Shown: piece after piece, positions 34,893 through 36,672 of the stretch | Layout: each line of letters starts with the position of its first letter | How positions within the stretch are numbered: position 1 is the stretch's first letter | Assembly (NCBI GenBank): GCA_913047395.1 | Contig: CAJWUF010000003.1 | Coordinates: 1 to 44,412 of the forward strand | Length of the DNA: 44,412 bases | From: an uncultured cyanobacterium | Lineage (GTDB): Bacteria > Cyanobacteriota > Cyanobacteriia > PCC-6307 > Cyanobiaceae | Reading direction: 5' to 3' | Notes under the pieces: model-generated | The model's database searches: none | Told to the model about the DNA's origin: nothing | What the model saw: only the letters and a program-made list of their open reading frames with translations | Translations under genes and position numbers: made by a program

Positions 34893-35023
34893 ATGCCGGC
34901 ATAGAAAGTTTCTTGACCCCCTTCTTGTAAAGCATTTTTTGCTCATAGCGTTGAAATGAATGCGTTAGCGGAGTTGATTCCTAGCAGCGCCAAGAGTCGA
35001 GTGGTTCTAGTTTTTTGAGCCAG

Positions 35024-35041
35024 ATCACAGAAAGCTGTGAT
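35024..35041. promoter_or_regulatory. Inverted repeat ATCACAG-AAAG-CTGTGAT (everted CRP-like half-sites)
   Basis: Perfect 7-bp arms, 4-nt spacer, upstream of the double-glycine peptide gene. Confidence 0.35.
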
Positions 35042-35138
35042 GCCAATCATGCTATTTGCATTAGAGCTGAGTGAGAGTTGGTGAGAAGTTGGTTAGGGCC
35101 CTGATTTATTTTGTGGCTATTACTTTGATCTCAGCAGA

Positions 35139-35154
35139 TGTGAGCTAGCTCACA
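35139..35154. promoter_or_regulatory. CRP/FNR-superfamily-type operator TGTGAGCTAGCTCACA
   Basis: Perfect 16-bp palindrome matching TGTGA-N6-TCACA, about 108 nt upstream of the ATG at 35262. Confidence 0.6.
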
Positions 35155-35261
35155 GATATGTTTGCTCTAGATCAACGCCATTTCGGCTGAGAAAAAGCGA
35201 TGGTATGTGCATCGGAGGCAGTTAAGTCTTCGGTATTACACACACTATCAACTTCAAAATC

Positions 35262-35432
35262 ATGACTACTTTTAATAGCACACAACCCAATAGTGAACTC
35301 ATTGATGAGGAACTTGCATTGACAAGCTTGAATGGAATAGCAGGTGGAATTGACTTTGACGAGCCCGATACGCCTGAGGAGGAGAAAGAGCAAGATGAAT
35401 TGCTTATGCGCTGGGTAAGAGGTGAATTCTAA
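35262..35432 (+). CDS. Double-glycine leader peptide, bacteriocin/microcin-like precursor (56 aa; not in ORF track)
   Basis: Manual translation: MTTFNSTQPNSELIDEELALTSLNGIAGG|IDFDEPDTPEEEKEQDELLMRWVRGEF*; leader has EL...L.GIAGG double-glycine motif. Confidence 0.7.
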   Translation: MTTFNSTQPNSELIDEELALTSLNGIAGGIDFDEPDTPEEEKEQDELLMRWVRGEF

Positions 35433-35571
35433 TCGCAATTAGATTAGAAGAAGCCTTGAGCAATCTGAGGCAAGAGACCCATCCTCATCGCAACAGCCTT
35501 ATCAGTGAACTGCTTCACCAAGAGTTTAATTTTTTACATACCTACTAAAGACACCTATTGTCTTCAAACCC

Positions 35572-35748
35572 ATGACTACTTTTAATGACGACGGCAACAA
35601 TGCACTGTTCGAACAAGAGCTCTCATGAAAAGTTCTATCGGGTGCAGTCGGTGGCCTTGTTTCAGTATTTAGGAAATCAGTTGAGCAACGATCTGGCACT
35701 ATGCTTGGCAAAATTCCGTGGCATCCCCACTCTTTCCCCAGGCCTTGA
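35572..35748 (+). pseudogene. Second double-glycine leader peptide gene interrupted by one in-frame TGA (35626..35628)
   Basis: One frame: MTTFNDDGNNALFEQELS*KVLSGAVGG|LVSVFRKSVEQRSGTMLGKIPWHPHSFPRP*; same MTTFN start as the upstream gene, GG motif intact after the stop. Confidence 0.65.
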
Positions 35749-35753
35749 CTAAG

Positions 35754-35783
35754 GAAAATCCCCTGTCATTAAAGGGGATTTTC
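35754..35783 (+). terminator. Rho-independent terminator after the double-glycine peptide genes
   Basis: GAAAATCCCCT-gtcattaa-AGGGGATTTTC followed by TTTT. Confidence 0.85.
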
Positions 35784-36008
35784 TTTTGCCTACTCGCATG
35801 CTTGAACTGCTTTATATTATCCGATTCCTAGCATCTTTGTGGCGTCCAAATGCTCATTTATATGTGCTATTGGTTAATAACTAAGCCGACATAAATTGAT
35901 CTGCATTGCAGAGCCAACTATCAATTTCTTGGTATTAATTAATGCATCTATTCCTTAAGTTCGAGTGCCAAAACTGCACGTCAACATCCTTTGTTTCATC
36001 TGCCCTGT

Positions 36009-36030
36009 GGAACTTCAGTGCAACTTGATG
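36009..36030. repeat. Short dispersed repeat copy 1 (GGAACTTCAGTGCAACTTGATG)
   Basis: Near-copy at 36804-36825 (GGAACTTCATTGCAAGTTAGTG). Confidence 0.4.
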
Positions 36031-36060
36031 CCGCCTCATGCTTAGAAGCATGAGGCGGCA
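36029..36060. repeat. Perfect inverted repeat / hairpin, 15-bp arms
   Basis: TGCCGCCTCATGCTT-AG-AAGCATGAGGCGGCA; no U-tract on either side. Confidence 0.8.
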
Positions 36061-36099
36061 ATGTTTGTAGGCAGTCTGCCAGGCATTAACCTTGGCAAA

Positions 36100-36672
36100 C
36101 TAATTGATTGAGATGGCCTTGACATCACCTATGTACTCAACTCCGTTGACCGAGTTGGCTACGTTTTCGGAGGCTGTGAGTACTTTTATATGGTAGAGCT
36201 TGCCGTCCTTGTCGTATCCTTTTACAGGCGAAATGGAATCGTCGGCATGTATTGCCTTGACGTTATGAATTAAGGAATTGTTCGCGAGCAAACCCTTCAC
36301 GTCGATCTTGTTCCCATTGTTGTCAATTCCTTTTACATCAACTATTTCCCCAAGCTCTGTTATTGCTTTAATTGATAGCCTGCCTCCACCTTCATTTTTG
36401 ATTGCCTTAATAGGCGTCTCCTTCCCGTCTATATATGCCCTGACTGAATGCAAACAGATATTAGAATTGCTGTCACAGTTTTCATCAACAATTATTTTGA
36501 CGTCATATAGTGAACCATCCTTGACGGCTTTGACGTCATAAAGATCCTCAAGATCATAATTAAATATCTTTACATGTGCCTTCTCAGGCGAAGCTTGAGC
36601 TTGAGAAGGCATGGCGAGTAGAGGCGCTAGCGATCCTAGTCCCATTAAGGACAGGGCGAGTATTCGTTTCAT
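36100..36672 (-). CDS. Secreted VKA/VKG-repeat protein of unknown function
   Basis: Sec signal MKRILALSLMGLGSLAPLLAMPSQAQA then about ten units of roughly 12 aa such as DVKGIDNNGNKI-DVKGLLANNSLIH-NVKAIHADDSIS-PVKGYDKDGKLY. Confidence 0.8.
   Translation of the reverse strand: MKRILALSLMGLGSLAPLLAMPSQAQASPEKAHVKIFNYDLEDLYDVKAVKDGSLYDVKIIVDENCDSNSNICLHSVRAYIDGKETPIKAIKNEGGGRLSIKAITELGEIVDVKGIDNNGNKIDVKGLLANNSLIHNVKAIHADDSISPVKGYDKDGKLYHIKVLTASENVANSVNGVEYIGDVKAISIN

Follow-up and report, generated by a model that had tools for sequence, protein, structure and literature searches.

Identification of a double-glycine precursor ORF

The locus described here raises the question of whether a 56-aa ORF, with no export or modification gene beside it, is a genuine secreted-peptide precursor and, if so, what would control it and carry its product out of the cell. 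The window, by which we mean the whole stretch of 44,412 nucleotides analysed, is contig C3 of assembly G000 (1.76 Mb, 86% complete). The ORF runs on the + strand from an ATG at 35262 to a stop codon ending at 35432, and its letters match those quoted in the initial annotation, which had assigned it a double-glycine leader. Its parts are as follows.

35262..35432, + strand: 56-aa double-glycine precursor ORF (leader profile E = 3.6e-15; 96% identical copy in ETNP18_MAG_14)
35262..35348, + strand: 29-aa leader MTTFNSTQPNSELIDEELALTSLNGIAGG, with L-12, L-7, I-4, G-2 and G-1 at the C39 contact positions given in PMC6363468
35349..35429, + strand: 27-aa predicted core IDFDEPDTPEEEKEQDELLMRWVRGEF, Cys-free, with 11 acidic residues against 3 basic ones, as counted from the sequence

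The leader was tested for hydrophobic residues at positions -4, -7 and -12 together with GG, GA or GS at -2 and -1, and Ile, Leu and Leu were found at the first three and Gly at both of the others. In the crystal structure of LahT150, a C39 protease, contacts are made to leader positions -1, -2, -4, -7 and -12 (PMC6363468). The coordinates, the sequence and this contact pattern all agree with the original assignment.

By Pfam, the neighbours of the ORF are a two-domain CobO/BtuR-type adenosyltransferase, a LarE-like ATP-binding protein and a DUF7486 protein, which bears out the earlier statement that no modification or export gene lies alongside. Beyond the DUF7486 protein are genes that we take, from their ORF sequences, to be speD, recF and ppc. 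The peptide island sits between larE and speD, and no double-glycine gene was found between these two genes in G270, G029, G071 or G098, as far as these relatives were read; larE directly adjoins speD in G270, and over the part read the gap holds other sequence in G029, G071 and G098. The DUF7486 protein (Pfam PF24307, E = 2.7e-19; 36100-36672, - strand), which adjoins the peptide genes, looks exported and carries repeated DVKAI-like motifs.

Pfam and NCBIfam searches with the window protein returned no match. In a protein scan of a public species-level collection, the only match outside G000 was a 96% identical copy in 'Prochlorococcaceae cyanobacterium ETNP18_MAG_14', which is the same locus as contig C47 of G120, referred to below as the sister genome.

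A leader family with unrelated cores

A leader profile (A3) was built from 12 leaders, using the leaders alone. Besides matching the window ORF in its own genome, this profile gave five more hits in G000, four of them better than 1e-3 and the fifth weak. The sister genome had four matches, G029 twenty and G270 seventeen, with a few more elsewhere in the 398 genomes of the family that were scanned; among 400 genomes of the order, matches at E <= 0.001 were confined to four genera. A protein search of relatives gave 20 weak matches in G029, a complete genome of the same genus, nearly all of them to the leader. The G029 paralogs begin with sequences such as MTTFNTDYNNTELLDQELTTAELSEVSGG, after which come unrelated cores, and their leaders are ~40-55% identical to that of the window ORF. 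When paralogs were compared with one another, the leaders were near-constant and the cores had no obvious similarity, so the precursors carry a conserved leader in front of hypervariable cores.

The search of relatives with the leader, which had been suggested as a check, therefore recovered paralogs: at least four more copies or remnants in G000 and ~20 each in G029 and G270, the leaders being near-identical among the members of the latter two genomes. Because several dispersed paralogs are present in G000 and ~20 in each relative, the ORF is not a lone orphan. Besides the ORF itself, the G000 copies lie on C29 (MTTSNNDYISELLDQELSSADLVGLSGA...), on C111 (two), on C22 (with a degenerate end) and at 35572-35748 of the window; C44 carries another degenerate family member. 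In the copies on C22 and C44 the GG motifs are damaged. The copy within the window, and the element that follows it, can be described thus.

35572..35748, + strand: degenerate second family copy, reading MTTFNDDGNNALFEQELS, a stop and then KVLSGAVGG...; the TGA at 35626-35628 breaks the frame, and the same TGA is present in the sister genome
35754..35783, + strand: hairpin and TTTT downstream of the second copy, a likely terminator of the peptide unit, read from the sequence

The second copy retains its start and its GG, the TGA being codon 19. The hairpin after it, which has a 10-base loop, is missing from the terminator scan's list for that strand. At C11:1-3217 of G029, five precursors stand in tandem, their leaders near-identical and their cores unrelated; there, promoter and leader seem to have been duplicated as a cassette with the core replaced.

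That the ORF is a chance reading frame with an accidental GG could be entertained from its short length and from the lack of any Pfam or NCBIfam match for its product, but the leader profile E value of 3.6e-15 and a promoter architecture common to paralogs both speak against this. The existence of the leader family contradicts such an origin, to which we give next to no weight; judged from its sequence, the ORF is real.

Comparison with the sister locus

The ORF, its start, its leader and its operator (see below) are intact in both the window and the sister genome. Two of the three substitutions that separate the two copies of the ORF are non-synonymous and lie in the core. The non-coding flanks differ from the sister by 1 change in 369 positions upstream (34893-35261) and 3 in 667 downstream (35433-36099), compared with 20 in 876 for larE. 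Since the downstream stretch, with its broken copy, is nearly as conserved as the upstream one, and larE is less so, upstream conservation was not used as evidence of constraint or selection. The pattern suggests instead that the peptide island was recently homogenised, transferred or gene-converted as a block. At 36029-36060, the window contains a near-perfect 14-bp hairpin, the loop of which differs from that of the sister as if inverted (CTTAGAAG versus CTTCTAAG).

A CRP-type operator ahead of some precursors

The upstream region of the ORF is common to other family members. It contains the following elements.

35139..35154, no strand assigned: CRP-type palindrome TGTGAGCTAGCTCACA, a perfect TGTGA-N6-TCACA, 123 bp upstream of the ATG
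35014..35029, no strand assigned: degenerate second CRP-type site TTTGAGCCAGATCACA, with 1 mismatch, the counterpart of a perfect distal site of the paralog on G000:C29
35199..35209, + strand: conserved block GATGGTATGTG, common to paralog promoters by promoter alignment and a possible extended -10

In five aligned promoters, both half-sites of the palindrome are invariant and most of the central bases vary. A sigma-70 scan gave no promoter above chance.

The operator is associated with peptides of this kind. In the whole of G000, TGTGA-N6-TCACA occurs 7 times, against 1 occurrence of a reversed-pattern control. Five of these perfect sites lie ahead of family members or remnants (C3, C22, C29 twice, C44); another, on C95, sits upstream of an exporter operon, 36 bp from its first gene; the last, on C1, precedes an apparent disrupted counterpart of a 253-aa protein that the sister has intact at the corresponding position. 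For 22 of 46 perfect sites from five genomes, the site is followed at 89-124 bp by the start of an ORF with the C39 consensus, most of the distances being 106-108 or 119-124 bp, compared with 1.2% for random positions in the same loci; this fraction is indicative and not a census, because the 46 sites are those in fetched loci and include 8 of the 17 in G071, several of these 8 taken from stretches picked for CCRG-2 peptides. The name CCRG is said to stand for co-culture responsive genes and to come from Aharonovich and Sher in 2016. In G071, CCRG-2-type peptides have the same palindrome 89-108 bp ahead. The window promoter thus has TGTGA-N6-TCACA at a spacing common to other targets, and from this we infer CRP binding at TGTGAGCTAGCTCACA. 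Not every family member has the operator: most of the canonical members of G029 and G270, with MTTFNTDYNN leaders, lack a perfect CRP site and share another upstream block.

Perfect CRP-type sites were also seen 105-112 bp before longer proteins, namely two identical 285-aa RTX-like starts (G270:C1:791000-799900, sites 2974 and 4648) and the 253-aa protein in the sister genome (L128 site 3036). G056 and G189, which belong to two other genera and give weak leader-profile matches, have 22 and 10 perfect TGTGAN6TCACA sites, respectively; at two of those in G189, a double-glycine ORF follows 108 bp downstream.

Candidate exporter operon and regulator

A complete exporter operon is present in G029 and G071, and consists of genes for a two-domain cyclic-nucleotide-fold (CAP_ED) protein, an ABC protein, an HlyD protein and a C39-ABC protein. 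In G000, the operon is cut off by the end of contig C95, which holds its first gene (79% identical) and the beginning of its second (70%), and no Peptidase_C39 domain (PF03412) was found in this 86%-complete assembly. The search for a C39-ABC exporter that had been proposed as a check was therefore answered in part: the operon is intact in two relatives, and G000 itself yields only its first two genes. The C39-ABC gene of the sister genome (G120:C85:38500-46083) is 87% identical to that of G029 and has two in-frame TGAs, opposite an Arg and a Cys of the G029 protein. The operator ahead of the operon is perfect in G000 and has one mismatch in G029; none was found within ~300 bp upstream of the G071 exporter.

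A CRP-family protein with the recognition helix SRETASR, which we take to resemble that of E. coli CRP, is encoded ~4 kb from the exporter in the sister genome and is also present in G029 and G071. At a contig edge in G000 (C30), there is an N-terminal fragment of a CRP-family protein, 90% identical over 164 residues.

From these sequences, export of the window peptide in trans is plausible. The initial annotation had described an orphan precursor served in trans, and the second half of that description may hold; no exporter lies alongside. The first half does not, in that the ORF is one of several G000 paralogs; moreover, its tie to the exporter is a common CRP-type operator and not gene order.

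The same data bear on an alternative, in which this low-light lineage is losing the peptide system and the ORF is a relic, intact so far but without export or function. The pathway is possibly decaying: two nonsense codons interrupt the C39-ABC gene of the sister, a TGA breaks the adjacent copy in both genomes, and the C22 and C44 copies of G000 have degenerate GG motifs. The few copies in G000 against ~20 in G029 point the same way, as do the two core-altering substitutions of the three that distinguish the sister copy. On the other hand, ORF, start, leader and operator all survive in both genomes, the start of the exporter operon is retained in G000 with its operator, and G000 is only 86% complete; the sister stops, too, could be errors in a low-coverage MAG. 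We regard this relic reading, the main alternative, as unlikely; decay and CRP-controlled export can both be partly true.

The acidic core

A recount of the core IDFDEPDTPEEEKEQDELLMRWVRGEF gave 4 D and 7 E against 2 R and 1 K, with no Cys, in line with the approximate figures first given. It is the most acidic among 47 family cores examined, of which 19 are net acidic and 36 have no Cys; some resemble hydrophobic class II bacteriocins. With 11 acidic and 3 basic residues, the peptide is not a typical cationic bacteriocin, and with no Cys it is not a lanthipeptide, both as originally argued. A prochlorosin was likewise rejected on the missing Cys, and the window protein has no Nif11 match in Pfam or NCBIfam. 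Three acidic cores of G270 and G276 with a DEP(E/R) stretch weakly resemble the window core (shuffle fraction 0.012 to 0.11, uncorrected, in ~45 comparisons); homology to them was dropped as a candidate, the similarity being weak even before correction for some 45 comparisons.

Double-glycine leaders are often found with RiPP enzymes, and ProcM provides a precedent for a dispersed enzyme acting in trans, on prochlorosins. The core could by this analogy be modified by a non-lanthionine enzyme to give a modified RiPP, but no modification gene lies nearby, the cores have no common residue pattern for an enzyme to act on, and the window core offers no Cys, no Ser and one Thr. We consider such a product very improbable.

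Proposed pathway

The ORF probably encodes the precursor of a peptide that is exported in trans under CRP control and belongs with the CCRG-2-like double-glycine peptides of picocyanobacteria. A CRP-family activator bound at TGTGAGCTAGCTCACA would turn transcription on, and the 29-aa leader would then be bound by the C39 peptidase domain of an exporter encoded elsewhere in the genome and made up of the cyclic-nucleotide-fold protein, the ABC protein, HlyD and C39-ABC. Cleavage after GG would release the 27-aa acidic core, free of lanthionine rings, to the outside, where the peptide may act in interaction with other microbes. By way of the common leader, one exporter could serve many unrelated cores.

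We propose more tentatively, as a possibility not yet to be preferred, that low-light Prochlorococcus and related Synechococcus have a secreted-peptide regulon under the control of CRP (cAMP). Its members, linked by a single operator at a constant distance, would be dispersed double-glycine precursors that combine a constant leader with cores unrelated to one another (CCRG-2 among them), some of the RTX-like exoproteins and, in certain genomes, the operon for the C39 exporter; other exoproteins may be included in this putative regulon. For the most abundant marine phototroph, double-glycine peptides are possible messengers or weapons, and their orphan genes have been difficult to connect with exporters or signals. 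A common CRP-type operator set at a fixed distance provides a connection of this kind, and opens the regulon, and the way it reacts to cAMP or neighbours, to direct testing in strains such as MIT9313.

Comparison with known systems

Multi-copy double-glycine peptides, CCRG-2 and CRP sites in MIT9313 and MIT9303 are each already known separately (PMC3140520, PMC8120280, PMC2633013). A limited literature search, which took PMC2633013 by its main text and CCRG-2 by PMC8120280 rather than by the 2016 paper, turned up no published link between a CRP-type operator and double-glycine peptides or the exporter for them. Predicted cyanobacterial CRP regulons have the consensus TGTGAN6TCACA, with sites predicted for MIT9313 and MIT9303 (PMC2633013), and the window operator has the same consensus; the main text of that report, as distinct from its supplementary tables, does not use the word bacteriocin and makes no tie of CRP sites to double-glycine peptides that we could find. 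The exporter operon of G029 and G071 (CAP_ED, ABC, HlyD, C39-ABC), of which G000 has the first two genes, is like the group V cyanobacterial bacteriocin export clusters described by Wang et al. 2011 (PMC3140520), but the window precursor lies outside the cluster and is tied to it by operator, not adjacency.

CCRG-2 peptides, the nearest named relatives of the window ORF, are described in PMC8120280, which cites Aharonovich and Sher 2016, as small secreted peptides of Prochlorococcus and Synechococcus with a 13-aa motif ending in GG. The window ORF shares with CCRG-2 (NCBIfam NF033456) the short, dispersed, multi-copy precursors of low-light Prochlorococcus, the conserved leader end with GG and the variable cores, but differs in its longer, 29-aa leader starting MTTFN and its strongly acidic core. 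Because the window protein has no match to NF033456 at the cut-off of 24 bits, while paralogs with the same leader pass (25.2 bits; G270 members also), it is a divergent CCRG-2 relative and not a formal member. Prochlorosins (ProcA, with a Nif11-type leader, modified by ProcM) are similar in occurring in the same organisms as many precursors with a constant leader, a hypervariable core and GG cleavage, from dispersed genes served in trans; the window leader, however, is unrelated and much shorter, and its core, having no Cys, can form no lanthionine. Should the regulon reading be true, these peptides would add a second combinatorial repertoire to that of the prochlorosins, with a cellular signal as its switch.
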